64,000 nt of DNA from Nguyenibacter vanlangensis (GTDB lineage Bacteria; Pseudomonadota; Alphaproteobacteria; Acetobacterales; Acetobacteraceae). The translations under genes and the position numbers were made by a program. Each line of letters starts with the position of its first letter. The first letter of the stretch is position 1. The stretch is from positions 3,923,501 through 3,987,500 of the forward strand of contig NZ_CP152276.1 in assembly GCF_038719015.1 (NCBI RefSeq), read 5' to 3'. The notes beneath the pieces were generated by a model that saw nothing but the letters and a program-made list of their open reading frames with translations, searched no databases and had not been told where the DNA came from. Below, piece after piece: positions 15,861 through 52,199 of this stretch.

Positions 15861-16219
<359 letters not shown>

Positions 16220-17546: not shown

Positions 17547-18148
17547 ATATGATGGTCGTGGCGCGACACGTCAACGGCTTGGGCCGCTTGACCGGAAGGT
17601 GTCTGTGTTCGCGTCGGACCGCTTGCGACGAAAGCGATCGGCGCTGTTCTCACGATTGGTAGATGACCGCCAAACTGGAGCGTGTTGAGCCGCGCCTCGG
17701 CGACGGGCCAATGCACACCCCGTGCAAGTGCCGCAAACGTCGCGATCAGCGACTAGATATGCGTCATTTGGATACCATGGGTTAAGATAATCGATTTCAC
17801 AAATCTCTGTCAGATGCCCATGTTGATGCTCGTCGGGCTTCCAATCCCGATCCGGAGGCATCGAGTGATCTTAGTCAGCATCCCATACCCGAATAGCCTA
17901 GCGCGCGGTTTGGCGCGAATCGCTGCAACGACAAGCATTCTGCTTGTGATCGAGGAGCCTCGCCGCGCCATCGACAGCGTAAGTGTCGAAATCGATGTCG
18001 GCACCACCGAGCCCAGCGCGCCCGCGCAGGCACGCAAATTTCTCGAAGATGTCCGTGTCACCAGCGCGCAAGCCCTGGCGAGAAATTGATGCCGATCGGC
18101 AACATCAATCAAGCGGACAAAGCTCCCAACAACTACGGAGATCATTTC
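17547..18148. other. long intergenic region between LysR and its divergent operon
   Basis: No convincing gene. A plus-strand frame of 91 codons at 17814-18089 lacks a ribosome site and any recognisable motif. The stretch should hold the LysR-controlled promoters; I could not single out one T-N11-A site with confidence. Confidence 0.4.
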
Positions 18149-18937: not shown

Positions 18938-18949
18938 AGAGCGACACCG

Positions 18950-33144: not shown

Positions 33145-34011
33145 TCAGGCCTTGGTGGGGACGGACATGTTGTCGATCAGGCGGACCGTGCCCAGCCGGG
33201 CCGCCGCCAGCAGGCGCGCCGGCCGGCCGTCATAATGCGCCAGGGACGCCAGGTCGGCGTCGGCCCGCAGTTCCAGATAGTCGATTTCGGCGAAACCGCC
33301 GGCCACCAGTCGCTCGCGCGCCTGCGCCAGCACGGCGGCGACGGAATCGCCGACCGCGATCCGCCGTGCCGCGTCGCGCAGGGTTTCAGGCAGGCGCCGC
33401 GCCTGGTCGCGTTCGGGGCCGGCCAGGCGGCGGTTGCGCGACGACATGGCCAGGCCGTCGGCCTCGCGCAGCGTCGGGCAGGCGACCAGGCGGATCGGGA
33501 TGTCCAGGTCGGTGGCCATCCGGCGCACGACGTGGATCTGCTGGAAATCCTTCTCGCCGAAGAAGGCCATGTCGGCCTGGCTTTGCAGGAACAGCTTGCA
33601 CACCACCGTCGCCACCCCGTCGAAATGGCCGGGACGGTGGGCGCCGCACAGCCCGGCCGACACGCCGGCGACCGAAACATGGGTGGCGAAGCCCGCCGGA
33701 TACATCTCGGCGACCGTGGGGGCGTACAGCACATGGACCCCGGCATCGGCCAGCAGGCGCCGGTCGTCGTCCCACGTGCGCGGATAGGTTGCCAGGTCCG
33801 ACGGATTGTCGAACTGGGTAGGATTGACGAAGATCGAGACGATCACCCGGTCCGCCTGCGCCAGCGCGGCGCGCGCCAGGCTGAGATGCCCTTCGTGCAG
33901 CGCGCCCATCGTCGGGACCAGCCCCACGGTCAGGCCCTGCCGTTTCCAGTCGCGCACCGTCTGCCGCAGGGCGGCGACGGCGTCCAGCGTATGCATCGGG
34001 GGGCGCGGCAT
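33145..34011 (-). CDS. panC: pantothenate synthetase
   Basis: A 288-residue enzyme that joins pantoate and beta-alanine with ATP in coenzyme A synthesis. Signatures: LVPTMGALHEGHLSL (HxGH nucleotide site), SIFVNPTQF, GHFDGVATVVCKLF, FGEKDFQQ and ADGLAMSSRNRRL (KMSKS-like). Starts at 34011 and 33996 are both possible; 34011 has AGGAG 12 bases upstream. It runs towards the Trm112-like gene and is divergent from the small lipoprotein gene. Confidence 0.95.
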   Translation of the reverse strand: MPRPPMHTLDAVAALRQTVRDWKRQGLTVGLVPTMGALHEGHLSLARAALAQADRVIVSIFVNPTQFDNPSDLATYPRTWDDDRRLLADAGVHVLYAPTVAEMYPAGFATHVSVAGVSAGLCGAHRPGHFDGVATVVCKLFLQSQADMAFFGEKDFQQIHVVRRMATDLDIPIRLVACPTLREADGLAMSSRNRRLAGPERDQARRLPETLRDAARRIAVGDSVAAVLAQARERLVAGGFAEIDYLELRADADLASLAHYDGRPARLLAAARLGTVRLIDNMSVPTKA

Positions 34012-34181
34012 CCGTCCTGCGATCTCCTTCGGGCGTGGCGAGGTTGGTTGGCCGAGATATATCGGCGTGTTTCGCGCCCAGGGGAAGGGGGAGAAGGGAA
34101 GAGCGGAGCGCCGTTCCGCCGCGTCTTTCGCCCCGGATGGCTTCTCTGCTATGAACGCCTCGGTCCCGGCAGGAGGCATCG

Positions 34182-34347: not shown

Positions 34348-35244
34348 TCAGGGGAGCGGGTCCGCCCATTCCTCGGCCGGCACCAGGTCCACGCCGACCG
34401 TCAGCACGTCGTTGCCGCCGCCCAGGATCAGCCCGTGCACCGGGCTGATATCGGCATAGTCGCGGCCCCAGCCCAGCACCACGTGTTCGTCGCGCACCAC
34501 GATCCCGTTGGTGGGGTCCAGCCCGACCCAGCCATGGGCCGGGCCCAGCCAGGCCGCGACCCAGGCGTGGGACTGGTCCGCCCCCAGGCGCCGCTGCTGC
34601 CCCGGCGGGGGACGGGTGCGGATATAGCCTGACATGTAGCGGGCCGGCACGCCGAGCCAGCGCAGGGCGCTGATCATCAGATGGGTGAAGTCCTGGCACA
34701 CGCCCTCGCGCCGGGCCAGGATCTGGTCGACCGGGGTGGACAGGGTGGTGACCCCGGCGCGGAAGCGGAATTCGCGGTGGATCCGCCCATTGAGGTCCAG
34801 CAGGGCCGCCAGGATCGGCCGGCCGGGCGTGAAGCATTGCGCGGCATAGCGGCCCGCATCCGGGCTGGTGGCGCACATCGGGCTGTCGAACAGGAATTCC
34901 GCCGCCGCCCATGCCGCGTCGCCGCCGGCCCTGGCGGTGGCGACGATGTCCTCCCAGGCCGGGGTGGCGGTCTCGGGCGGGGGCGGAGGGAAGGCGACGT
35001 CGACCTCGGAATCGGCCAGCACGTCGAACGTCGTGTGGGGGGCTTCGTGATACAGCCAGGTGACGCGATTGCCGAAATAATCGGCGCCATCGACCCGCCG
35101 CACCGGGGCAGGCGTGATTTCGAGCCGTGTCCAGCGCACGACCTGGCCCGGCAGGTCGCGGGGGGTGACGTGGACGATATGGGCGGCAAGGTCGACCGGG
35201 CTGCCATAGGCGTAGCGGGTCAGGTGACGGACGCGATAGATCAT
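34348..35244 (-). CDS. transglutaminase-like protein with bacterial N-terminal domain
   Basis: A 298-residue protein. N-terminal beta domain MIYRVRHLTRYAYGSPV (bacterial transglutaminase-like N), then the papain-like core with the catalytic triad: Cys in GVCQDFTHLMISALRWLGVPARYMSGYI, His in DQSHAWVAAWL and Asp in GLDPTNG. Its ATG overlaps the stop of the ATP-grasp/alpha-E gene (ATGA). Families of this kind are found with COG2308 and COG2307 genes in predicted peptide-ligation systems. It could cleave or transfer amide bonds. Confidence 0.88.
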   Translation of the reverse strand: MIYRVRHLTRYAYGSPVDLAAHIVHVTPRDLPGQVVRWTRLEITPAPVRRVDGADYFGNRVTWLYHEAPHTTFDVLADSEVDVAFPPPPPETATPAWEDIVATARAGGDAAWAAAEFLFDSPMCATSPDAGRYAAQCFTPGRPILAALLDLNGRIHREFRFRAGVTTLSTPVDQILARREGVCQDFTHLMISALRWLGVPARYMSGYIRTRPPPGQQRRLGADQSHAWVAAWLGPAHGWVGLDPTNGIVVRDEHVVLGWGRDYADISPVHGLILGGGNDVLTVGVDLVPAEEWADPLP

Positions 35245-37820
35245 GATTCGTCGATGGCCCCGAGTTTGGTGCCGGGTTCGCCATCGGGTTCGCCCCTGGA
35301 GCCCGCGCGGTCGGCATAGCGGCCGCCGCCCACCGCGCGCGGCGGCGTCAGCACGACGAAGTAGCGCCGGGCGATCTGCTGCCCCAGCCAGCGCAGGGAT
35401 TCGCGGATTTCGTCGATCGTCCCGGGCAGGGCGGCGGCCGCCTGGTCCTGCTGCGGGGCGGCCAGCACCGTGTCCACCAGCCCGCGCAGCCGCTCCATGA
35501 CCGCGTCCGCCGTGCCGGTCAGGCCGGCGCCGTCGCCCGGATCCAGCTCGGCCAGGGTTTCGGCGATCATCGCCATCTGGTAGGCGACGCCGCGCGGGTT
35601 GCCTTCGTCCAGCAGCAGCAGGTCGAGCACCGGGGCGGGCTGCAGCAGCGCGAAATAGCGCGACCGGTAGGTGATGACGCAGTCGCTGAGTTCCAGCATC
35701 AGCCGCAGCGCGCCCTCCATGCGGCCGCGCTGGGCCACGTCCTTCTGCCGCAGCACCAGCGCCGTTGCGGTCAGCAGCGCGCCTGCGCGTTCCACCCGGC
35801 GGCCCAGATCCATGAACTGGCGGCCGCCGCTGCGGACCATGTTTTCAGCCGTCAGGCCCGAAATGGTCGCGCCGAAGCGCAGGATACTGTCCGTGACGCT
35901 GCCGATCCGCTCCAGCGTGCGGCCCGGGTCGCCGGGTACCCGGGCCTCTTGCAGCCGGGCGCGCAGCGTGTCCGCCCCGTGGACGATGGTATCGAAGGTT
36001 TCGACCGTCAACCGGTCGCGCAGGCCGGCGGCGACCCGCACGATTTCGGAGAGCAGCCGTTGCGGCAGGGCGGAGTCGAAGGTGACGGCGGACAGGGCGC
36101 GCACCAGGGTCGCGTAGCCGGCGCCGATGGCGGTTTCCTCCTGCCACAGCCCGACCGCGCCGGCCAGGCGCAGCACCGTGTCCAACTCCACCCGTTCACG
36201 CGGGGAGCCGTCCACCCGGCCGACCCGGCGCGTCACCACGCGCAGCACGCGTCCGGCCTCTTCCAACTGTTCCAGATAGCGGCCCAGCCAGAAGAAATCG
36301 TCGGCCGCGCGGCTGGGCAGGTCGCCCTGTCCGCGGCGGATCGCCAGGGTCGGCGTGGGGGACACGGCGCTGCCGACCAGCTCGGCCGAGTCCTCGACCG
36401 TGACCCAGACGTCCTTGGTCACCACCGGGCCGTCCAGCGGGCTGCCCGGCGGCGTGTCGTCGTCCGGCAGCAGCCGGGCCAGCCCGCCGGGCATGACCTG
36501 CCATTGCGCCCCGTCGAACAGCGCGAACAGGCGCAGCACCACCGCCCCGGGTTCGATGCCGTTCGGCCGGATCGACGGCATGACCGAGGGGGCGATGGCC
36601 TCGACCGCCACGAAACGGCCGGGATGGCGCCGCAGCACGTCCAGCGTGTCGCCGTCCGCCCTGTCCAGCCGCTGGGCGGCCGCCTGGGGGTCGGCGGCAC
36701 GGCGCAGCCACCATGCCCCGCGGTCGCCCCCCAGCAGGGTGTCGATCGCGCCGTCGATCGCGCCGTCGGAGGCCGGCCAGATCGTCCGCAGGTCGGGCAG
36801 CATGAGGTCCTGGCCCAGCAGGTGTCGGGCCAGGGCCGGCATGAAGGCGGCCAGGCCCGGGGCCTCGACCACGCCGGCGGCCGGATGGTTGACCAGCTTC
36901 ACGGCGCCGCCGCGCGCCGCGTCCAGCAGGCCGGCGATGCCGGGGACCGGGCCGCCTTCCAGTTCCAGGGGGTCGACCGTCCAGCCGTCCTGGCGCAGCA
37001 GCAGCACGTCCACCCGGCGCAGGCCGCGCACCGTCTTCAGCCACAGCGCGCCGTCGCGCATCGCGAGGTCGCCGGCCTCGGCCAGCACGCAGCCCAGTTC
37101 CCGCGCCAGGATCACATGTTCGGCCCACAACGTGCCGCGTGGGCCGGGGGTCAGCAGGGCCAGGCCGGGATTGCGGTCCGCCAGGCCGGCCTGGCGGTAC
37201 AGGCTGTCCTGCCAGGCATCGAAGAACGGCGTCAGGGTCCGGACCTCGCGCCCCGAGAACAGTTCGGGCAGGACGCGCGCCATCTGGCGCCGGTTTTCCA
37301 GCGTGTGGCCGACGCCGTTGGCGCGGCCCACGCGGTCGGCCGCCACGCGCCATTGGCCGTCCGGCCCGCGCACCAGGTCGACCGCGTAGAAGGACAGGAA
37401 ACGGTCGATGACCGGTGCGCCGGCCGCCGCCGAAGCGCTTGCGTCCGCGCTGCCCATGCGCAGATAGCCGGGTGCGGGATAGACCAGCGGGGGCGGCAGG
37501 ATGCCGGCGGACAGCAGGCCGCGCGCGCCGTACAGATCGCGCAGGATCTCTTCGAGGAGGCGCGCGCGCTGGGTCACGCCCTCGGCCAGGCGGGCGAATT
37601 CCTGCGGCGGCAGCAGCAGGGGAATCGGATCGCATCCTGCCAGCCCGCCCGCCGCGGACGGGCCGGTCTGGTCGTGCAGCGCGCGCGCGATCTGCCTGCC
37701 GCGTTCGAGCAGTTCGCGATGGCCGAGATCGCTGATGGTGCCCAGCAGCCGGCGCCAGTGCGGCCGGACGCCGCCACGGCCGTCCACCATTTCATCCAGG
37801 GGGATGCGCGCGAGATCCAT
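35241..37820 (-). CDS. circularly permuted ATP-grasp/alpha-E fusion protein
   Basis: An 859-residue fusion. Residues 1 to about 500 resemble circularly permuted ATP-grasp proteins (GVRPHWRRLLGTIS, ARLLEEILRDLYGARGLL, NGVGHTLENRRQM, EHVILARELGCVLAEAGDL); residues from DFFWLGRYLEQLEEAGRVL on are an alpha-E domain. Compared with the paralogue at 52200, the segment LEDNARTPSG is replaced by AADRVGRANG and the glycine-rich KPVGESGGYG is absent, so this ATP-grasp part may be catalytically impaired. Middle gene of metallopeptidase, fusion, transglutaminase. Confidence 0.85.
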   Translation of the reverse strand: MDLARIPLDEMVDGRGGVRPHWRRLLGTISDLGHRELLERGRQIARALHDQTGPSAAGGLAGCDPIPLLLPPQEFARLAEGVTQRARLLEEILRDLYGARGLLSAGILPPPLVYPAPGYLRMGSADASASAAAGAPVIDRFLSFYAVDLVRGPDGQWRVAADRVGRANGVGHTLENRRQMARVLPELFSGREVRTLTPFFDAWQDSLYRQAGLADRNPGLALLTPGPRGTLWAEHVILARELGCVLAEAGDLAMRDGALWLKTVRGLRRVDVLLLRQDGWTVDPLELEGGPVPGIAGLLDAARGGAVKLVNHPAAGVVEAPGLAAFMPALARHLLGQDLMLPDLRTIWPASDGAIDGAIDTLLGGDRGAWWLRRAADPQAAAQRLDRADGDTLDVLRRHPGRFVAVEAIAPSVMPSIRPNGIEPGAVVLRLFALFDGAQWQVMPGGLARLLPDDDTPPGSPLDGPVVTKDVWVTVEDSAELVGSAVSPTPTLAIRRGQGDLPSRAADDFFWLGRYLEQLEEAGRVLRVVTRRVGRVDGSPRERVELDTVLRLAGAVGLWQEETAIGAGYATLVRALSAVTFDSALPQRLLSEIVRVAAGLRDRLTVETFDTIVHGADTLRARLQEARVPGDPGRTLERIGSVTDSILRFGATISGLTAENMVRSGGRQFMDLGRRVERAGALLTATALVLRQKDVAQRGRMEGALRLMLELSDCVITYRSRYFALLQPAPVLDLLLLDEGNPRGVAYQMAMIAETLAELDPGDGAGLTGTADAVMERLRGLVDTVLAAPQQDQAAAALPGTIDEIRESLRWLGQQIARRYFVVLTPPRAVGGGRYADRAGSRGEPDGEPGTKLGAIDES

Positions 37821-37847
37821 GATGCTGGATGTATGGGCGAATGCCGG

Positions 37848-38990
37848 TCAACAGTAAACGGAATTGCGGGCCCGGCGGACCAGATCGTGGATGAAGGCCA
37901 GTTTTTCCAGAACCGGCGGCGCCAGGACGAACGGGTAGAAATCGGCCTGGCCCATCGAGCGGTTCAGGCTGTTGATCGCGTAGGTCAGGGGCATCCAGGC
38001 CCGTGCCACCGGTTCGAACGATTCGACGTCATAGGGGTCGAAATCGATGTCAGCCTGCGGCGCTGGGCTGGCCTGCGGCGCCGGATTGCCGGGAGCCTGC
38101 GCCCCGACCGACAGGCCATAGGCCCGGGCGGTTTCGAGTGTCGCGACGATGTGCAGGTAATGCGCCCAGGTCTCGGCGAAATCCTCCCATGCATGGGTGG
38201 TGGCGTAGTCGCTGACATAATGGTCCTGCCAGCCGGGGGGAGGGCCCGACTGGTAATGGTGCTGCAGGGCCGCCCGGTAATCGGCGCGGTCGTCGCCGAA
38301 TATGGCGCGGCAGGCCGCCAGGGCCCCTTCGTCCCTATCCCCGCTCTCGTCTCCGCCCCCGTCGCGGACCAGCAGGTTCCAGTAATAATGGCCGACTTCG
38401 TGGCGGAAATGGCCCAGCAGGGTGCGGTAGGGCTCGCCCATCGCGACGCGCATCGTCTCGCGCGCCGCATCGTCGGCCTCGCGCACCGCGATCGTGACCA
38501 CGCCGTCCTGGTGGCCGGTCATCGCCCGCGTGCCGTCCGCGGCATCCTCGAGGAAATCGAATGCCAGGCCGTCCCGCGGGTCGTCCTGCCGCGTGCGGAT
38601 CGGCAGGCCGAGGCGGAGCAGCGTATAGATCAGCCGGTGCTTGGCCGTCTCCAGCCGCTGCCAGCGTTCGGCATTGCCCGGGATGGCGAGGTCGGGGATC
38701 ACCCGGTTGTGGCGGCAGGCCAGGCAGAAGGCCTCGCCGCCCTCGGGCACCAGCCAGTTGCAGACGCCATGCGCGGCATTGGCGCAGAATCGGTACGTCG
38801 CCCCCTCGGCCGCCCGCACCGACAATGGGCGCCAGACTCCGCCCTTATCGTCCTCGCCCGTCGCCACGGGTTCCAGCGCGCTGAGATCATTTTCCTCGGG
38901 CAGGTACCCCAGCGTGTGACCGCACCGCTCACAGACCGTGTTTTCGAAGAACAGGACCTGATCGCAGGCCTGGCAGACGAACAGCTTCAT
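37848..38990 (-). CDS. putative zinc-binding metallopeptidase (COG4307-like)
   Basis: A 380-residue cytosolic protein. A zinc ribbon opens the chain (CQACDQVLFFENTVCERCGHTLG), with another Cys set CANAAHGVCNW and CLAC, and the metalloprotease motif HFRHEVGHYYW (HExxH form) sits near residue 200, followed by HAWEDFAETWAHYLHI, which may give the third ligand. ATG 38990 is chosen for GGAG nine bases upstream. It is 27 bases upstream of the ATP-grasp/alpha-E gene, so the two are probably co-expressed. Confidence 0.85.
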   Translation of the reverse strand: MKLFVCQACDQVLFFENTVCERCGHTLGYLPEENDLSALEPVATGEDDKGGVWRPLSVRAAEGATYRFCANAAHGVCNWLVPEGGEAFCLACRHNRVIPDLAIPGNAERWQRLETAKHRLIYTLLRLGLPIRTRQDDPRDGLAFDFLEDAADGTRAMTGHQDGVVTIAVREADDAARETMRVAMGEPYRTLLGHFRHEVGHYYWNLLVRDGGGDESGDRDEGALAACRAIFGDDRADYRAALQHHYQSGPPPGWQDHYVSDYATTHAWEDFAETWAHYLHIVATLETARAYGLSVGAQAPGNPAPQASPAPQADIDFDPYDVESFEPVARAWMPLTYAINSLNRSMGQADFYPFVLAPPVLEKLAFIHDLVRRARNSVYC

Positions 38991-39005: not shown

Positions 39006-39227
39006 GCCGTTTCACGCGCTTGCACAACGTTTTGATCGGCATGGTGTTCCGCTCCGGCAGGGCGTGGAGCGTCCGGGACCCGAATGGGTTGAAGTCGGCC
39101 GCTTCGGCCTTGTGAAGTGGTTTGATATTATTATTTTTTATTAATTTATTGTAAATTTTTTAATGAATGGAATAAAAATTTTACAATACATGTTGCGAGG
39201 CAACCTGCGAGTGTTCGAGAAGACAAT
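39006..39227. other. AT-rich leader of the desaturase gene
   Basis: 39121-39190 is strikingly AT-rich (long A/T runs, TTATTTTTTATTAATTTATTG) inside a GC-rich chromosome. It lies between divergent genes and fits a promoter of imported DNA, possibly a target for nucleoid silencing proteins. No gene is visible. Confidence 0.6.
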
Positions 39228-40247
39228 ATGGTATCGTCAAGTTACGACAGCGAAACGGTCAGGTCGATCCGGCGGTTCCAGGGCTCGCACTTCATCACCA
39301 GTCTCTTTCAGCTTGTCTCGACCATCGGCCTGCTTCTGGCCTGTTATGTCCTGCTTTATGCGGGTCTGGCCCATGGATGGTGGGGGGTCCTGCTGCTGAC
39401 CCCTCTTGCCTCGGGGCTGTCCATCCGTGTCTTCGTGCTGCAGCATGATTGCGGGCATGGATCAATGTTCAGAAGCCGGTGGGGCAACGATGCGGCTGGC
39501 CGCCTCTGTTCGCTGCTGACATTGACCCCTTATGACCACTGGAAAAAGCATCACGGCCTGCATCATGGTTCATGGAACAACATGGACACGCGCGGACGTT
39601 TGTCGGACCTGTATTCGGACTGCATGACGGTGGCGGAATATGGGAAGATGACACGCTTGCGGAGGTATATATACCGGACCAGCAAGAATCCTGTCCTTAC
39701 CATCTTCCTGATGCCGCCGCTGATCTTCTTTGTTATTTACCGAATTGCGTTCGATACGCCGCGCCACTGGGTGAAGGAACGTGTCGGCGTCTATCTCACC
39801 AATCTCTGCCTGCTTATCGGGTACGGAACGCTTGCCTGGCTGGTCGGACCGAAATCCGTCGCGCTTGTCAGTTTCATGGTGATCTATCCCGCCGCCGTGA
39901 TCGGTGTCTGGCTGTTCCTCGTGCAGCATAAATTCGAAGGTGTTCAGTGGTCTGGAAATCCACAATGGAATATTTTCGATGCCGCGGTGACCGGATGCTC
40001 CTTCCTGCGGCTTTCAGGAATCCTTCGTTGGTTCACAGGGGATATCGGGACTCACCACATACACCATCTGGCCCCCGGGATTCCCAACTACCGCCTGGTC
40101 GCCTGCCACGAAGCGCATCCGGTTTTTCAAAACGTAAAGATACTCACCTGGCAGGACGGAATCCGGGAGGCCTGGACCAATAAGCTGTGGGACGAGAGTG
40201 CCCAGGCCATGGTGGATCTGCGCTCTGTGCGCCATCTTTTGCAGTAG
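39228..40247 (+). CDS. fatty acid desaturase (membrane di-iron)
   Basis: A 339-residue membrane protein with the three histidine boxes of acyl-lipid desaturases: HDCGH near residue 74, HHGLHH near residue 109 and THHIHHL near residue 276, with hydrophobic pairs before and after (FQLVSTIGLLLACYVLLYAG, IFLMPPLIFFVIYRI). It should introduce double bonds into membrane acyl chains. Codon use is less GC-biased than in the flanking genes and the leader is AT-rich, so transfer is likely. Confidence 0.9.
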   Translation: MVSSSYDSETVRSIRRFQGSHFITSLFQLVSTIGLLLACYVLLYAGLAHGWWGVLLLTPLASGLSIRVFVLQHDCGHGSMFRSRWGNDAAGRLCSLLTLTPYDHWKKHHGLHHGSWNNMDTRGRLSDLYSDCMTVAEYGKMTRLRRYIYRTSKNPVLTIFLMPPLIFFVIYRIAFDTPRHWVKERVGVYLTNLCLLIGYGTLAWLVGPKSVALVSFMVIYPAAVIGVWLFLVQHKFEGVQWSGNPQWNIFDAAVTGCSFLRLSGILRWFTGDIGTHHIHHLAPGIPNYRLVACHEAHPVFQNVKILTWQDGIREAWTNKLWDESAQAMVDLRSVRHLLQ

Positions 40248-40490
40248 ATCGGGCGGGTACATTTGAGTCGAGATTGTCAGGAAGCATCTTTGCATCGCGG
40301 CCATTCGGGTGCGGCTGCGAAATGGTGCTTGAGCCGTGACGTGGTGGCCTCGATCCCGGCATGCCAGCGATGTCCGCACATTGCGGCGTTCGGATGGTCG
40401 ATCGCATTTCGCCGAAAAAGCGACATGGAAAATTTCACAAATTGGCAAAACCGGTGTATAGGTGTTTATCTGCCGATCTGGGGGTAAGCC

Positions 40491-40730
40491 ATGTCCACCA
40501 TCCGCTGGAATGTCGCGATTTCATCTGAAGTGGATCAGTCCGTTCGCATGTTTCTCGCCGCCAATGGAGGGGGGCGCAAAGGCGACCTGTCCCGTTTTAT
40601 CGAAGAAGCCGTGCGGTCCTACCTGCTGGAACAGGCTGTAGACCAAGCCAAGAGAGCGACCCAGGATATGAGCGAAGCTGAACTGGCCGATTTGGTGAAT
40701 GAAGCCGTGCAGTGGGCACGCGGGCACTGA
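40491..40730 (+). CDS. ribbon-helix-helix antitoxin
   Basis: A 79-residue protein. The strand-helix-helix pattern RWNVAISSEVDQSVRMFLAANGGGRKGDLSRFIEEAVRSYLLEQAV is a CopG/MetJ-type DNA-binding fold; the rest would bind the toxin. GGGGTAAGCC precedes ATG 40491. The toxin gene starts on the base after its stop codon. It probably represses the pair's own promoter. Confidence 0.82.
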   Translation: MSTIRWNVAISSEVDQSVRMFLAANGGGRKGDLSRFIEEAVRSYLLEQAVDQAKRATQDMSEAELADLVNEAVQWARGH

Positions 40731-41153
40731 ATGCGGGTTGTTCTGGATACCAATATCCTTGTTTCCGCTCTGATTTACCCTTGTGGTGCCCCTGACGCGA
40801 TCTATCGCGCCTGGCGGGCGCACCGCTTCGATCTGGTCACGTCCACGACCCAGCTTGAAGAACTCAGGCGCGTCAGTCGCTATCCCAAACTCCGACCGAT
40901 TCTGCCGCCTCACCGTGTCGGGGCGATGATCAACAATATGCGCAAAGTATCTGTGGCCGAGCGGCTCCCTGCCTTACCGGCTGACGTGACGATCAACGAT
41001 CCCGACGATACCTTTCTCCTGACGATGGTGCTGGCGTTCGATGCCGATTACCTCGTAACCGGCGATCATCGTGCCGGTCTGCTGGAGAAGGGCCGGTTTC
41101 AGAGAGCACGCATCGTTACCCCCTCAGAGTTCTGTTCCATCGTCCTTGGTTGA
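40731..41153 (+). CDS. PIN-domain toxin ribonuclease
   Basis: A 140-residue protein with PIN acidic residues: VVLDTNILVSALI near residue 6, ELRRV in the middle, and NDPDDTFLLTMVLAFDADYLVTGD near residue 100. The COG1569-type layout (GAPDAIYRAW, EFCSIV) suggests a VapC-like RNase. ATG 40731 directly follows the antitoxin stop (TGAATG). Confidence 0.88.
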   Translation: MRVVLDTNILVSALIYPCGAPDAIYRAWRAHRFDLVTSTTQLEELRRVSRYPKLRPILPPHRVGAMINNMRKVSVAERLPALPADVTINDPDDTFLLTMVLAFDADYLVTGDHRAGLLEKGRFQRARIVTPSEFCSIVLG

Positions 41154-41297
41154 GTGGTTTCAGGCCAGTTTTGGCCGCCGGCCGCGCCGGCGTTCCGGCA
41201 GGCGGATGACGGGCGGCCTCGGTCGAGGATGTTCTGGCTCTGACGTTGGAGGCGCTGTTATTTTGTGAAGGACATGCCCGATGTGGCGTTTCCATTT

Positions 41298-42530
41298 TCA
41301 ATGAAGAAGGAGGTCATTCCGATAGATTATGCCGCCCTTCATGACGATTTTGATGTTTCGGGCATTGCCGAGGATGTCTGCGTGCGCCAGGGGGTTGCCG
41401 TCCACCACGATGAGATCGGCTGCTGCGCCGGGTTGTACGATACCGAGTTTTCCTTCCATACCAATCAATTTGGCAGCGATTGTCGTCGCACTTGCAACAA
41501 TGTCGAATGCGGGCAGCACGCGGGCGCGGATGGCGAATTCCTCGTTCTGCCGGGGATGGGCCGCACCCAGGAGGTCCGTTCCAAACGCCATCGTCAGTCC
41601 GGCCTCCTGCATGATCGCAAGGCTTTCCATGCCGCGGATCCGGACATCGGCGACCTTGGCGATCGACACCGGGGGCAGTCCGTATCTGTGTCCGTCGCTT
41701 GCCAATGCCTCGTATGTCACGAGCGTGGGGACGGCGATCGCACCGCGGCTTGCCGCCAGCGCCGCGGTGGGCGCATCGATGTTGTTGCAGTGTTCCAGCG
41801 AGTACACGCCTGCGCGCACAGCACGTTCGATGGCGTCGGGCATGTAGAGATGCGCAGCCACGTACGTGCCGTTGTCGCGCGCCTCCTGCACCGCCGTCTC
41901 GATCTCCGCCACGGAATATCCCTGCGCGGCGATCGGATCGGTCGGTGACGATACGCCGCCATTGGCCATGATCTTGATGAACTGGGCGCCCTCGCGCATC
42001 GTCTCGCGCACCGCGACACGCACCTCGTCCACGCCATCGGCCACGCGGCCCAGAGCGCCAAAATTGCGTGCCCAGCGCTTGGCGTCATACGTATCGTAAC
42101 GAATCCGGTTATCCGCATGCCCGCCCGTGCGGGAGAGGGCCTTGCCGCAGACGATGAGGCGGGGGCCGACGATATGCCCTTCCTCGATCCCCTCCGCCAG
42201 ACCACGCGTCGCGCCGCCGACATCACGTACTGTGGTGAAGCCGCGCGCCAACATGCCCTTCATGATCGGAAGCGAGCGGGCCATGGCGAGCGCATCCGGA
42301 AGCTGCGCGTTGGCGGTAAGATCCATCGTGCTGGCGACGACGTGAACATGGCAGTCGATCAGACCCGGCATCAGGGTCGCCCCGCGGAGGTCGATCACCT
42401 GTCCGGCCTTTTGGTCGAAGGCGGCATCGGTCGCGACGATCGTGCCATTCTCGACCAGGACATGGCCTTCGCGGGGCTCGCGCGCAGTGCAGTCGACGAT
42501 CGACGCATTGCGAAACAGGATCTGGCTCAT
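41298..42530 (-). CDS. amidohydrolase-family metal-dependent hydrolase
   Basis: A 410-residue TIM-barrel enzyme: HVHV metal ligands in LMPGLIDCHVHV near residue 66, metal-bridging Lys in FIKIMANGG, His in YVAAHLY and SLEHCNN, and Asp in AFGTDLLG. This is the imidazolonepropionase/prolidase-like subgroup acting on amide bonds of small molecules or dipeptides. Start ATG 42530 follows GAGGTGTT. Last gene of the minus-strand unit TonB, GAF, TetR, MFS, amidohydrolase. Confidence 0.9.
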   Translation of the reverse strand: MSQILFRNASIVDCTAREPREGHVLVENGTIVATDAAFDQKAGQVIDLRGATLMPGLIDCHVHVVASTMDLTANAQLPDALAMARSLPIMKGMLARGFTTVRDVGGATRGLAEGIEEGHIVGPRLIVCGKALSRTGGHADNRIRYDTYDAKRWARNFGALGRVADGVDEVRVAVRETMREGAQFIKIMANGGVSSPTDPIAAQGYSVAEIETAVQEARDNGTYVAAHLYMPDAIERAVRAGVYSLEHCNNIDAPTAALAASRGAIAVPTLVTYEALASDGHRYGLPPVSIAKVADVRIRGMESLAIMQEAGLTMAFGTDLLGAAHPRQNEEFAIRARVLPAFDIVASATTIAAKLIGMEGKLGIVQPGAAADLIVVDGNPLAHADILGNARNIKIVMKGGIIYRNDLLLH

Positions 42531-42589
42531 AACACCTCGGGTACGATGGATCTGATGATAAAGATGTCTGGGAAAAAGGTTTGCGGCCC

Positions 42590-43927
42590 CTAAAGCGCTT
42601 CGAGCACCAGGCGCTCGGTTCGCGGCCCGAAGAGCAGGACGACGCCGCCGCCGAGCAGCAGGGTCGCGGCGATCGCCGCGAAGACGCCGGGGACGCCGAT
42701 ATGCGGCATCGCTTCGGCCACCAGGACGGGCGAGACAATGGCCCCCAGGCGTCCGATCGCGGACGCGCTTCCGCAGCCGATCGCGCGGAGATGCGTGGGG
42801 AAAAGCTCGGGCGTGTAGGCGTAGAGACTGCCGTAGGCCCCGCTCAGACAGGCCGAGAGGGCGGAGGCGGCCGCGATTACGCCCGCATCGCTGCCCGCGA
42901 TGCTGATCGCGCCGCCCGAGGCGACGCAACCGAGCAGAAACGACGTGATCGTCTGGCGACGGCCGATCACTTCGATCAGGGCACTGGCCAGAAGATAGCC
43001 GGGTAGCTGCGCCGCATAGATCAGTATCGAGAAGCCGAAACTATGCACCATCGTCATCCCGCGTGCGATCAGCAGGCTCGGCATCCATGTGAATACCGCG
43101 TAGTAGCTCGCTGTCAGGCAGAGCCAGACCGTCCATGCGACGAAAAGCCCGCGACGATGCCGCGCCGAAAGCAGGCCACCGCCGTAAGGCAGCACGGGGA
43201 CAGGCAGTATCGCGGGCTCGGATAAGCCGGATACGGGACCCAGTACCGTGCCGCGTGCGGCGATCTGCGCCTCGATCCCGCTCATGACGCGCGCGGCCTC
43301 GTCGGGGCGCCCGATACTCTCCAACCAGCGCGGCGACTCCGGCAGCCGCCTGCGCCACCAGAGCAGCGCCAGCACGGGGAGTGCCGTCAGGCCGATCGCC
43401 TCGCGCCAGCCTGCGGGGCCGCTCGGCACCACGATCCAGCCGATCACGGCCGCCGCGACGAAGCCGCAGGAGAAGAACGCCGCCAGCGCGCTGACGAAGG
43501 CGCCGCGATATCGCGCGGCCACGAATTCGCTGAGATAAGGCGCCACGATGGCGGATTCCGCCCCGGTCCCGAGGCCCGCCAGGATCCGGCTGGCGAGGAA
43601 CGCGGGATAGGACGATACGAGCGCGGAAATGCCCGAGGCCACGCAGAACACCGCCAGGGCCCCCATCATGACCCCACGGCGGCCGAACCGGTCCCCCACC
43701 GCACCGGCACCCAGGGCGCCGAAGAAGAAACCGATATAGGTCGCGCTGCCGACCAGGCCGAGCCTGGCCCCGCTCAGGGCCCATTGCGTCTTGAGCACCG
43801 GAAGCACGAAGGCGATGATCGCGGAATCGAGGCCGTCGAACGTATAGCCGGCGCCCCCGATAAGAAGCAGCACGAGATGGAAGCGCGAGAACGGCAAACG
43901 TTCGATCCGCTGGCCGATGGTGCTCAT
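42590..43927 (-). CDS. MFS transporter, AAHS/SP-type organic-acid importer
   Basis: A 445-residue protein with 12 predicted segments. GGAGYTFDGLDSAIIAFVLP in the first helix and GDRFGRRGVMMGALAV (motif A) match the aromatic-acid:H+ symporter group; WRRRLPESPRWL is the central-loop PESPRWL motif of sugar-porter-like and AAHS carriers. ATG 43927 overlaps the TetR stop (ATGA), so regulator and carrier are coupled. It probably imports the amidohydrolase substrate across the inner membrane. Confidence 0.9.
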   Translation of the reverse strand: MSTIGQRIERLPFSRFHLVLLLIGGAGYTFDGLDSAIIAFVLPVLKTQWALSGARLGLVGSATYIGFFFGALGAGAVGDRFGRRGVMMGALAVFCVASGISALVSSYPAFLASRILAGLGTGAESAIVAPYLSEFVAARYRGAFVSALAAFFSCGFVAAAVIGWIVVPSGPAGWREAIGLTALPVLALLWWRRRLPESPRWLESIGRPDEAARVMSGIEAQIAARGTVLGPVSGLSEPAILPVPVLPYGGGLLSARHRRGLFVAWTVWLCLTASYYAVFTWMPSLLIARGMTMVHSFGFSILIYAAQLPGYLLASALIEVIGRRQTITSFLLGCVASGGAISIAGSDAGVIAAASALSACLSGAYGSLYAYTPELFPTHLRAIGCGSASAIGRLGAIVSPVLVAEAMPHIGVPGVFAAIAATLLLGGGVVLLFGPRTERLVLEAL

Positions 43928-44571
43928 GGCGGTGCGCCGCGGGCGGCCGCGATCTCGCGGCGGAACAGGGCACGCCAATAATGCAGCAGGTCGTCGAAAT
44001 AATCCTCGTCCTGCCGCAGCACCTGCTGCGCGACCATGCCGCGCATCAGGCACATCGTCGCGTTCAGGATCGTCCGTGCCTGTTGCGGCGTGAGCGAGGT
44101 GCTTCGGGCGAGATGCTCCCAGATGCGATCGAGCGCCGCATGAAACGTCGCCACGACCGGTATCAGGCGCAGCCGGAAGGCCTGATTGTTGCGGGCCTCC
44201 GGCAGATACTCCAGCGTGACGTGGAACAGCCGTTTCGCCATCATCTGCCACAGATAATCGACGATACGGTCGGTATCGATGGGAAGAAGCTCGATCCTCG
44301 AGGCGAAATCTTCCAGCGCCGAGGTCGCCTCGCTCAACTGCCACGAGATCGCGGCGACCACGAGGTCTTCCTTGTGCGCGAAATGATGGGTCAGCGCCCC
44401 GCGCGATACCTGCGCCCGTTCGGCCACGTCCTGCGTGGTCAGGCGGGTGTAGCCGTTCTCATGGAGAAGATCGATCGTCGTCTCGAGCAGCGCCATGCGC
44501 GTGGTCTCGCTGCGCTCGGCTTGCGAGCGCCGGCCGCCGGATCTCGTCTCCCGCCGCAATTGCACCTCCAT
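43924..44571 (-). CDS. TetR-family transcriptional regulator
   Basis: A 215-residue regulator: MALLETTIDLLHENGYTRLTTQDVAERAQVSRGALTHHFAHKEDLVVAAI is the HTH with recognition helix. The C-terminal domain is helical and ligand-binding by analogy. It lies in the middle of a minus-strand cluster and probably senses the imported compound. A candidate quasi-palindrome (ACGA-N6-TCGT) is at 47577-47590, upstream of the TonB gene. Confidence 0.88.
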   Translation of the reverse strand: MEVQLRRETRSGGRRSQAERSETTRMALLETTIDLLHENGYTRLTTQDVAERAQVSRGALTHHFAHKEDLVVAAISWQLSEATSALEDFASRIELLPIDTDRIVDYLWQMMAKRLFHVTLEYLPEARNNQAFRLRLIPVVATFHAALDRIWEHLARSTSLTPQQARTILNATMCLMRGMVAQQVLRQDEDYFDDLLHYWRALFRREIAAARGAPP

Positions 44572-44650
44572 GATGAATCTCCGGTCGCAGATCAAGCACG
44601 CGGGAGTGTAGCGGTGGGGTGGCCATCCCGCCAAGCCGCCGGGCGCCAGG

Positions 44651-45142
44651 TCATCCGTACGTCGCCAATAGGCCGCGGGCGATCAGCGGCGCCGTTGCGA
44701 GCTGAACGAGCGTTTCGAAACTTCTGAGATCGACGGAAACGAAATGGCGGGCGTCGTGCAGCAGATTGATCGTGCCGATCACCGTACCGTTCCAGCGCAC
44801 CGGGAAATTGACGGCGCTCGCGCAACCGAGGGATGCGATGATCGCGTGGTCCGCATAGGCCGCCCGCACCGCATCCTCGTCCGGAGCATGAAAGATGCGC
44901 GCCTCGAACAGCGCGGCTTGGGCCCAGGGCGCGTCTGCCACCGGCTTCGCCCCGCCGATCGGATAGCGGGCCGGGTCGTTCGTCCAGACGCGCCGGCAAA
45001 GGGCCGCTTCCGGATCGTGCTGCAGGATCGTCGCAAGCCGATATCCCGGATCGTCGAAAAAGGCCGCCATCAGAGCCGAGAAGCCCGCATCGGGTTGTGG
45101 CGTGTCCGCGAAGGCGCGCAGGACGCCGGCGACGGATCGCAT
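44651..45142 (-). CDS. GAF-domain protein
   Basis: A 163-residue single GAF domain: ATILQHDPEAALCRRVWTNDPARYPIGGAKPV, HAIIASLGCASAVNFPVRWNGTVIGTINLLHDARHFVSVDL. The NxPVxxxGxxIGTINLL stretch is the GAF core strand. It likely binds a small ligand. ATG 45142 overlaps the TonB receptor stop (ATGA), so it is co-translated with the receptor. There is no output domain, and a role as intracellular binding protein or enzyme is open. Confidence 0.82.
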   Translation of the reverse strand: MRSVAGVLRAFADTPQPDAGFSALMAAFFDDPGYRLATILQHDPEAALCRRVWTNDPARYPIGGAKPVADAPWAQAALFEARIFHAPDEDAVRAAYADHAIIASLGCASAVNFPVRWNGTVIGTINLLHDARHFVSVDLRSFETLVQLATAPLIARGLLATYG

Positions 45143-47502
45143 CAGAATTCCGCCCCCACCGTCACCATCGCCGAGAACGGCGCGGCGACATAATAGGAGG
45201 GGGTGTTGCCGGCGATCGTGGTGCCGTAGATCCCCTTCGTCATCCGTGCGTTCGGCTGGATAACGGCGACCTGGCTCAGATACGGGACATCGGAGAGATT
45301 GGCCAGATTGAGCCGGATGCTCGGTTTGTGCAGCATGCCCATGTTCGGCAGACGGTAGCCCAGTCCGAGATCGACCGTCTTGTAGGCGGGCATCGACTGG
45401 TCGTTCATGAAAGTCGCATACTGGCTGTCGACCCATTTGAACGTCAAGTTGGCGAAGAACGGGCCGCGCGTGTAATTGACGCCGAGCGTGGTGATGAATT
45501 TCGGGCTGGCGACCATGGTCCGCCCCTTCGTCGGCAGGAGATCGCGTCCTACGGCGAGGTTGTTGTCGAGGCGGGCATCGAGGTACTGGCCGTTCACATA
45601 GGGCGAGAATCCCAGGAACGGCTTGAGCGCCACTTCGGCCGTCACGCCGCGGATCGTCTCGCCGCCGGCGGAGATGGCCTGCTGGACGGGTGCGCCGTTC
45701 AGATAGGTCAGCGCCACGAGCTGTCGGTTCGTCAAGTTCATGTTGAACAGCGCCATGTCGAAATCGAACATGCCATGATAACGCATGCCGATTTCCTCGC
45801 CGATGCTGTATTCGGCGCGCGCGGAGGGATTCCCCGCCGACGTCACCTTGCCCGTCGTGACGTTGAAGGAGGTCGGATAGGTGCTCAACGTCACCGGCGG
45901 CCGCGTGTTCGTCGTGCCGTTGACGTAGAGCTGGACCTGCCGGTTCACCTGCCAGGACATTGCGACACGCGGCATCGGCTGCGTGATCGCCGACGAGTAA
46001 TGATAGGGCGCGCCCGGCAGCTCGTTGGTGCCGGAGAGATAATACATCATCGCCTTCAGCCCGGCCGTGAGCTTGACCCGATCCTGGAACAGGCTCTGCG
46101 TGTCGGAGACGTAGAATTCGTTGATCTGCGAGCTTTCCTGGAAATGGTTGCCGGTATAGATCGCCCCGTTCGGCGCGCGGAGGACGTATTTGCCGAAAGC
46201 GTTGGGAGAATTGCCGTCCGAGTCGAGCGGCGTGTAGCCGCCGACCTGCTCCATGTTCCAATGGTCGTACCAGTACCCGGCGATCAAGTGGTTCGTGGTG
46301 GTCGGGTCGTATTGCACGTATGCGTTGACGCCGGTTGCGAACTGCGTCTGGTTGGAATGAACCATTGCCGGCGTAACGGCGCTCGGAAGCCCCGGATCGA
46401 CCTTCTGATCGCCGAAGTAGAAAGCATTCCTGTTGATGGTCGTCTGGCCAGGGCTGTCCACCTGCGTCCAGTGAAAATACGGCGTGATGTGCAGTCTCAG
46501 ATTTTCGGCAAGCGCGACTTCGTTCTGCCATGACAGGAGAACGTTCTGCCGGTTGTATACGTAAGATTTCCAGTAATTCGTGGTCTTTCCGGGGAGGTAA
46601 TTCGATGCATAGGTATTTTGGGAGAAATTGTCTCCGGCCGTGTTCGATGCCTCCCAACCGGCGAGGGTGAAGGGCGCGAGGCGGGCATTGTCCCAATCCG
46701 AATATGAGATGAAGAGCGACGATTTCGCGCTGTCACGCCATTCCCTGACCGCCTTGAAATCCACATGATCGCGCGTGTTGCGTCCGGGGCCCGTGTAGTT
46801 GTCCGCAGCCGCCCGCGCGTAGGACGCGAACAGCCTGATGCCGGAATGACCGATCTCGCCGCTATCGGCACGGGCGAAGACACGCTGTCCGCGAAATGAG
46901 CCGTAGCTGTAATCCACCATGGCCCCGCGGCGGCGCGACGGGTCGCGGACGGATTCGATCAGTTCGCCGCCGGATGCGGTTTGAACGGGATCATTGATGC
47001 GCGATGTGCCGGCGATCAGGGTGATGTCGGAAATGTTCTCGTTGTCGGCCCAGGTCTCGGTGTATGGCCAGTAATAGGCCTGATCGACCCCGGGCGCCCC
47101 CTCGATGGTCCAGCCCATTTCCGTCGAATCGAGTCCGCGCACCGAAATATTGTTTCGGACCGACAGACCATAAGCGTCCGAGGAGCCGAAATTCACGCCC
47201 GGCAGGGACGCCGCGATCTGCAATGGCGACGAAGCGGCACCGCGCTGCTGAATGGCCGTTGCGCTGATCGAGTTTGTCGCCTCGGGTGCATGCTGACGCT
47301 TCATGAGCCCACCGGCGAGGGTTCGCGCGGCACTGACCTGTATTTCTTCCGGGTCTTGCTGCAGGGAGGCGGATGCCGGTTTCTTGGCCACGCCGTGCGC
47401 GGCCTTGGAGGGCGCCCCCAGTGCCCCGGAAACAGGGGGTGCGACCTGCGTCAGCACCGTGGCGCAGAGCAGGATACCGGGGCTGGAGACGATCTTGCGC
47501 AT
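45142..47502 (-). CDS. TonB-dependent outer-membrane receptor
   Basis: A 786-residue protein with signal peptide (ILLCATVLTQVAPPVSGALGA), a TonB-box-like EEIQVSA near residue 52, a plug domain (SISATAIQQRGAASSPLQIAASLPGVNFG, VRGLDSTEMGWTIEGAP) and a long beta-barrel ending PFSAMVTVGAEF with the terminal Phe. Substrate unknown; the plug resembles non-siderophore receptors. First gene of the minus-strand unit that continues to the amidohydrolase, so it should import that compound through the outer membrane. Confidence 0.92.
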   Translation of the reverse strand: MRKIVSSPGILLCATVLTQVAPPVSGALGAPSKAAHGVAKKPASASLQQDPEEIQVSAARTLAGGLMKRQHAPEATNSISATAIQQRGAASSPLQIAASLPGVNFGSSDAYGLSVRNNISVRGLDSTEMGWTIEGAPGVDQAYYWPYTETWADNENISDITLIAGTSRINDPVQTASGGELIESVRDPSRRRGAMVDYSYGSFRGQRVFARADSGEIGHSGIRLFASYARAAADNYTGPGRNTRDHVDFKAVREWRDSAKSSLFISYSDWDNARLAPFTLAGWEASNTAGDNFSQNTYASNYLPGKTTNYWKSYVYNRQNVLLSWQNEVALAENLRLHITPYFHWTQVDSPGQTTINRNAFYFGDQKVDPGLPSAVTPAMVHSNQTQFATGVNAYVQYDPTTTNHLIAGYWYDHWNMEQVGGYTPLDSDGNSPNAFGKYVLRAPNGAIYTGNHFQESSQINEFYVSDTQSLFQDRVKLTAGLKAMMYYLSGTNELPGAPYHYSSAITQPMPRVAMSWQVNRQVQLYVNGTTNTRPPVTLSTYPTSFNVTTGKVTSAGNPSARAEYSIGEEIGMRYHGMFDFDMALFNMNLTNRQLVALTYLNGAPVQQAISAGGETIRGVTAEVALKPFLGFSPYVNGQYLDARLDNNLAVGRDLLPTKGRTMVASPKFITTLGVNYTRGPFFANLTFKWVDSQYATFMNDQSMPAYKTVDLGLGYRLPNMGMLHKPSIRLNLANLSDVPYLSQVAVIQPNARMTKGIYGTTIAGNTPSYYVAAPFSAMVTVGAEF

Positions 47503-47762
47503 TGTGCTGATTGCCTTGGCGAGGGGGTGGTTCGCTTCATTATCGCCCTACGAATCGATATCGCAACTAAAAACATACGAGTCGGTTCGTTTTTGCGTGG
47601 GCACTGTTCAGTGCGCCGCCACGATCGGGGCGTAATTTTGCAGCCGCGCCCGAATGGCTTCAGTGCGAAGGAAACGTCCTGACCGATCGCGATTCAGATG
47701 TCCAATGCACGCAATGCGGTCCCATGCCTTTCCCCCCCCATCTACAGTAGGCGGACGGCCGG

Positions 47763-48208
47763 TTACTGGTCATGATTGCCGCTCGATTCGAGCAGCAGGT
47801 AATCGCCTTCGGGCGCCGAGCCGGTGCCTATCTCGACGAAGTTGCAAGCACGATAGAACGCCATCGCCGGCTGGTTGGCGAGCAGGCACTTGAGCCGGTA
47901 GCGTTTCGCCGGCCAGCCCGGCAGCGCGCGTAACAACGCCCGGCCGACGCCGCGCCGAAAATATGACCGTTCCACGTGCAGGTGGTGGATGAAATCATCC
48001 GGCTCCCAGAGCGACATGAAACCAGCAAGCCGTCCCCCTTGTCCATAAGCGACAAGCAGCCTTTCCCCGTCGGTCTGCGCGTCGAAGTCGGCCAGGGCGA
48101 ATGCGCTTTCCGGTTGCCATGCAAAGGTTTCACGCCGCGAACGTAGAACAGTTCGCGCAGGGCCGGCCTATCTTCGGCGACACCATCACGTATGAAAATC
48201 GTCATCAT
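47763..48208 (-). pseudogene. GNAT acetyltransferase, frameshifted
   Basis: The frame from ATG 48208 begins MMTIFIRDGVAEDRPALREL and FYVR, then the expected continuation (RETFAWQPESAFALADFDAQ, LLVAYGQGGRLAGF) lies in another frame from about 48145, followed by MSLWEPDDFIHHLHVERSYFRRGVGRALL (acetyl-CoA loop) to 47763. One indel breaks the gene; a sequencing error is possible. The protein would be a small N-acetyltransferase. Confidence 0.75.
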
Positions 48209-48332
48209 TCTCTTGTCTGGCTGGGAGAATCCGGGAATGCAAGCTTCCGTATCCTCTTCCCCAACCCGGGGGTGAAGGGGACGATTATCCCCTTCCGGGT
48301 GTAGGGCAGCGCCCTGCGTCTCCACCCCCGTT

Positions 48333-48383
48333 AGAGCGCATCTTGACCTGTTCAAACGAGTCCGTTTGAACGGGACTTGCTCT
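48333..48383. repeat. palindromic element, family A copy 1
   Basis: Bounded by AGAGC (48333) and GCTCT (48379-48383). Its core GTTCAAACG-AGTC-CGTTTGAAC (48350-48371) is a perfect 9-bp stem. The core recurs at 59941-59968. Confidence 0.75.
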
Positions 48384-48392
48384 GGTGTCCTG

Positions 48393-48420
48393 CCGAGAAA
48401 TTCTTATGAGAATTTCTCGG
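48393..48420. repeat. palindrome with 12-bp stem
   Basis: CCGAGAAATTCT (48393-48404), loop TATG, exact complement 48409-48420. It belongs to the repeat cluster after the transglutaminase gene. Confidence 0.7.
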
Positions 48421-48447
48421 ACCAGCAGGCCACTAAAATATTGATTC

Positions 48448-48500
48448 TAGTGTCCTTTCGATTCCGAAATTCGCTTGCGAATTTCGGAATCAGGACACTA
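48448..48500. repeat. large palindrome supplying the transglutaminase stop codon
   Basis: Inner stem 48460-48474 pairs exactly with 48477-48491 (15 bp) around TT; outer TAGTGTCCT (48448-48456) pairs with 48492-48500, a three-base bulge between. Its last three bases CTA are the TAG stop of the minus-strand gene, so the element also can act as its terminator. Confidence 0.75.
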
Positions 48501-51500: not shown

Positions 51501-51938
51501 GACCAGCATGTCGACGGTGTGCCGGGGCGTGCGGTCGATCCCGTCCAGCAGGGTCGCGAGCAGGGGCCCCGGCGTCTCGCGGACCCGGTACGGCGCCAGT
51601 TCCCCGGCCAGCACGGGGTCATAGGCGAAGGGCCATTGTTCGGCCTGGGGCTCGAGGAAGAAATCGAACGGGTTGATCGTCGCCATGTCGGCGACCAGAT
51701 CGACCGCGACGTCGAAATGGGTGATCCGCTCGGGGAAGACGACCCGCGCCTGGTAGTTGCCCGAAGGATCCTGCATCCAGTTGATGAAATGCGGTTTCGG
51801 CTCGATCCGCAGCGCGTAGGACAGGACGGGCGTTCGGGCATGGGACGCCGGGCGGAGCCGGATGGTCTGTGGTCCCAGCGAGACCGGACGGTCGTAGCTG
51901 TAGCGGGTGCGATGTGTCAGCGCGACATGCAGGGTCAT
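48498..51938 (-). CDS. large transglutaminase-like protein with DUF2126 domain
   Basis: A 1146-residue protein. N-terminal bacterial transglutaminase-like domain (HVALTHRTRYSYDRPVSLGPQTIRLRP), transglutaminase core with Cys in ACGSCRDSAWLLVQILRHLGFAARFVSGYL, His in DLHAWAEVYL and Asp in GLDATSG, then a long DUF2126 region from about residue 300 (GGEPTFI, LLNFSITPDPGVIEVNVHPAASW, DGRHVGTGGGNHVVMG), whose circularly permuted layout suggests glutamine-synthetase- or ATP-grasp-like chemistry. It is divergent from the ATP-grasp gene at 52200. Confidence 0.9.
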   Translation of the reverse strand: MTLHVALTHRTRYSYDRPVSLGPQTIRLRPASHARTPVLSYALRIEPKPHFINWMQDPSGNYQARVVFPERITHFDVAVDLVADMATINPFDFFLEPQAEQWPFAYDPVLAGELAPYRVRETPGPLLATLLDGIDRTPRHTVDMLVALNQQIQQRIAYVVRMEPGVWTPEETLERACGSCRDSAWLLVQILRHLGFAARFVSGYLIQLVADQKPVTGPEGPSADFTDLHAWAEVYLPGAGWIGLDATSGLLTGEGHIPLAATPEPASAAPITGLIEPCETEFDFTMSVTRVLETPRTTRPYDDAQWQAILAAGRAVDATLQAGDVDLTMGGEPTFIAAADMDAPEWNVDALGPTKRAYAGRLLRRLLPLWSGGAAIQHVLGKHYPGEQLPRWALLCHWRRDGQPIWTDPALLASDDDRDDATEQDAAAFCRALAERLQVDPGLVSPAYEDIHYYLWREHRLPANVIVEDAKLRDPLERERLARVYGHGLNMPVGSVLPLRVVVRDGVRRWQSGRWFFRGDLMFLVPGDAPVGFRLPLQSLLWAEDGSIDQDMARDPFAPVAPLPPHPGLARRAGPAGNGAPEWMRQGVPSNVPGNIPGIPGSIPDGAEPELSDLPALPPHPGGGRIGLDRAIAEHLVAVGREEPELVRTALAVEARGGILHVFFPPLYAAEDWLDLCAAIEDTARAFGRKVVLEGYQPPRDPRLLNFSITPDPGVIEVNVHPAASWDEHVTRSQELYEQARQVGLVAEKFMVDGRHVGTGGGNHVVMGAARAGDSPFLRRPDLLKSLLGFWHNHPALSYLFSGLFIGPSSQHPRVDEARGDSVAELEIAFAQVRPDQPTPPWLTDRLFRNLLADMTGNTHRTEFCIDKLYAPESSSGRLGLVEYRAFEMPPHHQMAAAQMLLMRAAVAAFWNQPYDRRLVRWGTRLHDDFMLPHFVRQDFEDAIAELRALGAPLDAAWFAPHFEFRFPEIGTIPLLGMTLELRHALEPWHTLAEEPGSGGTVRYVDSSAERVQVRVSGWVDERYVLACNGVGIPLTRTDRQGEYVGGVRFKAWNPPSALHPTVGAQSPLVFDVYDGWTGRSIGGLTYHVAHPGGRNYETRPVNANEAEARRRTRFFPFGHTVGPMAAPVPARSLEQPRTLDLRRFA

Positions 51939-52199
51939 GCATCGACCTTGGTCAGTGATCTTCCGGACGGACCTGTTCCGGTCCGGTGACGGTAGACCAG
52001 CTCGGCCGCCCGCGAACAGGGGAAATACCCAAAATTCACATCATCCGGCTCCGAAATGATCGCACTGTCGAGAGCGTGCCGATTGGCCCTTGGCGGCGAC
52101 CCGTTTTCTTGCTTGGCTGTCTGGAAATCGGACCAGCAGGTGGGTGGACATGAATCCTTCGCGCCTGATCTCCCCTCATGCCGGGGAGAGCACGGGACA

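Follow-up and report, generated by a model that had tools for sequence, protein, structure and literature searches.

The stretch of DNA considered here, called the window throughout, spans 64,000 nucleotides of Nguyenibacter vanlangensis and carries on its minus strand a trio of genes recognized from Pfam profile matches and open reading frames: a zinc metallopeptidase (37848..38990; PF10005 zinc ribbon and PF15887 Peptidase_Mx, with an HEVGH motif), a fusion of a degenerate circularly permuted ATP-grasp with an alpha-E domain (35241..37820; PF14403/PF04174 and PF04168), and a small transglutaminase (TGase)-like protein (34348..35244; PF08379 and PF01841). The ATP-grasp Pfam match occupies residues 67-450 of the fusion and the alpha-E domain residues 501-821. 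A preliminary description of this DNA had given the order of the trio, the 27-base gap between peptidase and fusion (37821-37847) and the four-base ATGA overlap between fusion and TGase, and the sequence confirms all three. At a distance lie a TGase-like domain fused to a DUF2126 putative amidoligase (48498..51938, minus strand), which the PF09899 profile matches over its full length (1-826 of 826; 1235 bits), and, on the plus strand, a standalone circularly permuted ATP-grasp (52056..53741) whose ATP/Mg motifs EDN, VVK and SGGYG are intact and a standalone alpha-E protein (53732..54784), the starts of the latter two being unsure. The two groups are separated by genes outside the system (39006..48497; desaturase, PIN, amidohydrolase, MFS, TetR, GAF and TonB-type receptor), and panC (33145..34179, minus strand), also outside the system, is a conserved flank in the genus that stands next to the small TGase gene in all eight other same-genus regions (L220-L227). 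ATP-grasp, alpha-E and TGase-like genes, the clustering of which marks an amidoligase (Anbu-operon) system, are thus found together, with at least one ATP-grasp copy (52056-53741) retaining intact motifs; the COG numbers for these genes are COG2308, COG2307 and COG1305, and for the peptidase COG4307. Directly 3' of the standalone alpha-E gene there is also a FAD-dependent DAO-family oxidase (about 54795-56135, plus strand), which may act on amines or amino acids and be tied to the product; of the six same-genus regions, two (L221 and L224) have a homologue downstream of alpha-E, the flanks being short.

The identification of the HEVGH protein as a metallopeptidase was upheld by its PF15887/PF10005 matches, Peptidase_Mx covering the full profile at 360 bits, and by an invariant HExxH. 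The start at 38990 (MKLF...) agrees with homologues, the longest open reading frame beginning at 39005, and in all 34 aligned relatives the eight zinc-ribbon cysteines of the N-terminal region and the HExxH are unchanged, as are W268, E269, D270, A272 and E273 downstream of it. The AlphaFold model (mean pLDDT 91.6) gives a zincin-like match when the predicted fold is compared with solved structures by VIA-align, and a match to the catalytic domain of a toxin would reflect common fold, with no bearing on harmfulness; a sequence search of the PDB returned no clear relative (best E 0.015). Members of PF15887/PF10005 (DUF2248) are predicted zincins in the available part of PMC3650047, and the protein at this locus is a full-profile Peptidase_Mx member of that family with a predicted peptidase activity. 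Among the best 80 of 592 matches, the closest named locus is from Nguyenibacter vanlangensis (99% identity), a species in which the desaturase adjoining the peptidase is likewise seen (L140).

The preliminary description had treated the trio as a "first" system and the more distant genes as a "second", a division that finds no support within the genus, since six of the eight other same-genus genomes keep all six genes together in the order of the window; the most fitting view is that the two systems are parts of a single locus, each making up one half. In these six (L220-L225, two of them near-identical here) alpha-E and ATP-grasp are divergent from TGase-DUF2126, which is followed by peptidase, fusion, TGase and then panC. 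The gap between TGase-DUF2126 and peptidase, counted between stop-to-stop frames, is 4 b, 0.1, 0.1, 1.2, 2.2 and 5.1 kb, and the window shares this order but with a gap of 9.5 kb containing unrelated genes; with such variable length across the six genomes, this interval looks like a preferred insertion site. In the remaining two genomes (G135 and G145) the peptidase, fusion and TGase genes still cluster, but the ligase half maps to a different contig and is absent from the 8.9 and 7.7 kb scanned beyond the peptidase. Outside the class, G198 (L268) has all six genes within about 11 kb, with the peptidase beside the standalone alpha-E.

Whether the peptidase belongs with these genes was assessed in 150 genomes of the order, the present one included, where the peptidase occurs in 80 (in G011 and G051 as fragments or broken matches only) and alpha-E, among the matches listed, in at least 111. 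Counted in the same way, alpha-E is present in at least 79 of the 80 genomes with the peptidase versus at least 32 of the 70 without it, and it lies within 15 kb of the peptidase in 51 of the 80, while the other 29 have no listed alpha-E that near; chance would place about 1% within this distance (by hand arithmetic, about 50 kb of 4752 kb). In the 51, the nearby protein is a standalone alpha-E in 36 (mostly about 3 kb away), a fusion in 9 and both in 6. All nine same-genus genomes have the peptidase directly before the fusion, with domain matches 61-544 b apart. A phylum sample of 249 genomes gave 34 with the peptidase, 33 of which have alpha-E (G234 is the sole exception) versus 99 of the 215 without it. 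Part of the system lies near the peptidase in 10 of 36 phylum regions and none in 26 (these regions span 37 of 43 matches, leaving out the locus itself and five weak fragments). Named loci, taken as the best 80 of 592 matches, show a system part near the peptidase in 30 and none in 50; excluding a lone TGase, the 30 become 28, and among the 57 loci with full flanks a part is near in 24. Linked loci in this set include several Methylobacterium and Aurantimonas, 1 of 12 Bradyrhizobium, and Hymenobacter (Bacteroidota), and in 16 named loci an operon of TGase-DUF2126, fusion and TGase runs divergently from the peptidase gene. Since genomes of one family are not independent, the stronger argument is the spread across groups and arrangements: before the fusion, after TGase, divergent from TGase-DUF2126 or beside Anbu, in several orders and classes. 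The conservation beside the other two genes on which the preliminary description had staked the link is thus observed, and such recurrent proximity to amidoligase genes speaks against a fortuitous link; coincidence or hitchhiking would explain the many peptidase loci without a system nearby, but against 51 of 80 observed where about 1% is expected, in several arrangements and classes, I consider it extremely improbable. The many loci lacking a nearby part do suggest that the peptidase may do additional work elsewhere.

Anbu, the proteasome-like protein of the known operon, had been noted as missing from the window, and the search now extends to the whole genome (one contig, 99.7% estimated completeness), where a relative's Anbu as query (best PDB match 5loy, E 1e-86) found none; the genome's sole PF00227 match is hslV (solved HslV, E 1e-62), followed by an AAA ATPase frame. 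All nine same-genus genomes, this one included, gave no Anbu, and the 150 order genomes gave 25 full copies and one fragment, with a standalone alpha-E within 1 kb of Anbu in at least 24 of the 25 Anbu genomes among the matches listed. These counts come from the Anbu-query search only; counts based on PF00227 would be too low because that profile misses most Anbu proteins, detecting 2 of 25. In an alpha-E tree of 62 rows the standalone proteins of the order fall into two clades, one of 14 rows with 12 peptidase-linked and none Anbu-linked (support 100/99) and one of 30 rows with 23 from Anbu genomes and none peptidase-linked (100/100), so that judging from these separate clades a swap inside the order is possible, but peptidase and Anbu are not exclusive. 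A general replacement of Anbu by the peptidase was rejected: the two share a locus in L174, L258 and L267, and 11 of the 25 order Anbu genomes also have the peptidase, none at a shared locus, with two on the same contig (399 and 839 kb apart) and nine on different contigs, so that a break between contigs might conceal a linkage. In the tree, deeper rows whose loci contain both proteins fall outside both order clades, and the tree should be read knowing that L234 repeats L048, that the Anbu of L024 is on another contig, and that L235 is labelled as neither even though a fragment of the peptidase occurs at a distance of 1.8 kb in its genome. L174 itself, from Paracoccus chinensis (10001-21047), holds two tandem peptidase/ATP-grasp/alpha-E sets plus Anbu.

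The fusion had been cast as the ligase. EDN, VVK, SGGYG and SSQGGG are kept in all 35 standalone ATP-grasps, 52056-53741 included (the second V of VVK and intervening residues vary), whereas the Glu, the Asn, the Lys and the whole SGGYG are kept by 0 of 119 database fusions (from the best 120 of 5203 matches, one dropped for length) and by 0 of 50 locus fusions (one of them gapped across much of the region). The fusion match in G027 has a reported TGA and was used for its open frame alone. The Lys position is Arg in 100 of the same 119 database fusions, the SSQ stretch is mostly deleted, and among 23 mostly distant fusions, drawn from operons of the non-Acetobacterales type and from the phylum regions, the Glu is kept in one and the Asn and Lys in none. 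By analogy with glutathionylspermidine synthetase (GspS), the Glu and Asn presumably hold metal and the Lys and glycine loop ATP, and motif and fold likeness to that enzyme suggests that the lost positions would be the ATP/Mg binders; a profile alignment with the GspS-like family places ExN on ExN, but not significantly. Structure 3n6x, labelled a putative glutathionylspermidine synthase, keeps EDN, VVK and SGGYG, in contrast to the fusion. The fusion scores 314 bits against Pfam CP_ATPgrasp_2, Asp148, Arg151, Asp162, Arg430, Asp470 and Trp472 are largely retained, and the predicted model (mean pLDDT 83.7) still has the fold of 3n6x and glutathione synthetases. Its dN/dS of 0.27-0.35 (four relatives) indicates constraint and argues against decay, although it exceeds the 0.13-0.21 of the ligase half. 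As the fusion is without the ATP/Mg positions that the neighbouring standalone ATP-grasp keeps, it is, on sequence grounds, probably not an active ATP-grasp ligase.

The alpha-E half presents a different picture. W511, R514, E517, R524, G655, G673, E677, R678, P742 and R743 form a core common to fusions and standalones, and beyond it R603, E659, R674, R675, D713, R721, Y722, D733, N741 and Q748 do not vary among the 119 database fusions, and D738 is missing from one of them (again from the best 120 of 5203 matches). This polar set, D738 included, is all kept in 20-23 of the 23 mostly distant fusions, and at these positions the 50 standalone alpha-E rows have other residues or vary; T717, R719 and Q727 seem invariant in those 119 database fusions but are not so in the 23 others. 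In the tree described above, the 12 fusion rows, all close ones, form one group (100/100), and a standalone alpha-E is also present in 51 of 52 order fusion genomes (among the alpha-E matches listed, with one fusion, G101, added).

Neither the peptidase link nor the degenerate fusion turned up in my literature search, and Iyer et al. in 2009, reportedly the founding paper on the alpha-E/circularly permuted ATP-grasp/TGase system, may mention the peptidase. The genes of the window resemble the Anbu operon in bringing ATP-grasp, alpha-E and TGase-like genes together with a peptidase in the set, but appear to differ from it in that Anbu is absent and a zinc peptidase, a DUF2126 amidoligase and a degenerate fusion are present. 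They differ also from the glutathionylspermidine and trypanothione synthetase-amidases (2io8, 2vpm), since here the opposing activities would sit on separate proteins. In the available excerpts, the Anbu-operon or alpha-E/ATP-grasp/TGase system is credited to that 2009 paper (PMC5666114, PMC6376114), phosphate is released from ATP by the Yersinia Anbu-operon ATP-grasp, Anbu is described as having no peptidase activity, and the function of these genes was in 2017 called experimentally unconfirmed (PMC6376114); later literature settling this function was not found.

Taken together, I tentatively favour, with somewhat less than even confidence, a six-gene amidoligase locus with a ligase half and a processing half in which the fusion is a binder that acts on the product and does not use ATP. 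The ligase half would consist of the ATP-grasp (52056-53741), the alpha-E protein (53732-54784) and TGase-DUF2126 (48498-51938), predicted to form an ATP-dependent amide bond on a small molecule, peptide or protein; the processing half would comprise the fusion as a pseudo-ligase, the small TGase-like protein and the zinc peptidase. The fusion would be a ligase paralogue that lost its ATP/Mg site while retaining the fold and further conserved residues; it may bind the ligase product or a partner, after which the TGase-like protein and the peptidase might trim, transfer or remove that product. The direct basis of this proposal is gene set, order, conservation, motif loss and clade structure. 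Against it stand the peptidase loci without a part nearby (29 of the 80 in the order, 50 of the 80 named ones, themselves the best of 592 matches, and 26 of the 36 from the phylum), the two genomes with halves on different contigs, the possibility that most fusions, with Arg at the Lys position, bind nucleotide in another way, and pull-downs in which, as far as the available text of PMC6376114 goes, Anbu showed no specific interaction with other Anbu-operon proteins.

The same observations can be arranged differently. If the fusion itself were an active ATP-grasp ligase, with alpha-E as scaffold and the peptidase closing the cycle in Anbu's place, then the peptidase conserved beside fusion and TGase, the failure to find Anbu in the genome and the 314-bit CP_ATPgrasp_2 match would all fall into line, but the motifs are lost across the fusions examined, an intact ATP-grasp is already at the same locus and Anbu occurs together with the peptidase at L174, L258 and L267, making this very unlikely. 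A mainly degradative role, in which TGase-like protein and peptidase would, when nitrogen is limiting, break unusual peptides whose products the ligases store or cap, seems rather unlikely, though it draws on the DUF404/407 and DUF403 genes at -8.2 and -9.4 in a B. cenocepacia NtrC-regulon table (seen in an excerpt of PMC5491218), on Anbu being up under nitrogen limitation (excerpts of PMC5666114, PMC6376114) and on marine metagenome networks associating DUF403/404/407 and Bact_transglu_N with urea metabolism domains (excerpt of PMC3597751); ligases would be superfluous for hydrolysing ordinary peptides, and no sigma-54 box was found in the window (with at most one mismatch) or in 13 scanned upstream stretches. 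The fusion might instead be a new enzyme that uses the ATP-grasp half as a frame and has moved catalysis or binding to a polar site in alpha-E, as the polar set invariant across database fusions, kept in distant ones and altered in standalones would suggest; that set could, however, be a protein-binding surface, and Y722 is also present in 29 of 50 standalone rows, so that I regard this as distinctly unlikely.

Returning to the six-gene amidoligase locus, the cycle of ligase, scaffold and peptidase put forward in the preliminary description is retained as a proposal, but its ligase is now sought in the opposite half of the locus, and a zinc peptidase paired with a ligase look-alike hints at a make-and-break cycle. 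A bolder extension, unlikely as a whole, is that the fusion founds a ligase-derived family that does not use ATP, has its working site in alpha-E and forms an editing or removal arm beside TGase and peptidase, in a bacterial cycle of amide tagging or peptide capping for which the standalone ATP-grasp, alpha-E and DUF2126 proteins would do the writing. The peptidase link, the probably non-ligase fusion and the six-gene layout tell an experimenter where to look for ligase activity, where for hydrolysis and where for binding, and the zinc peptidase provides an experimental entry point to the system.
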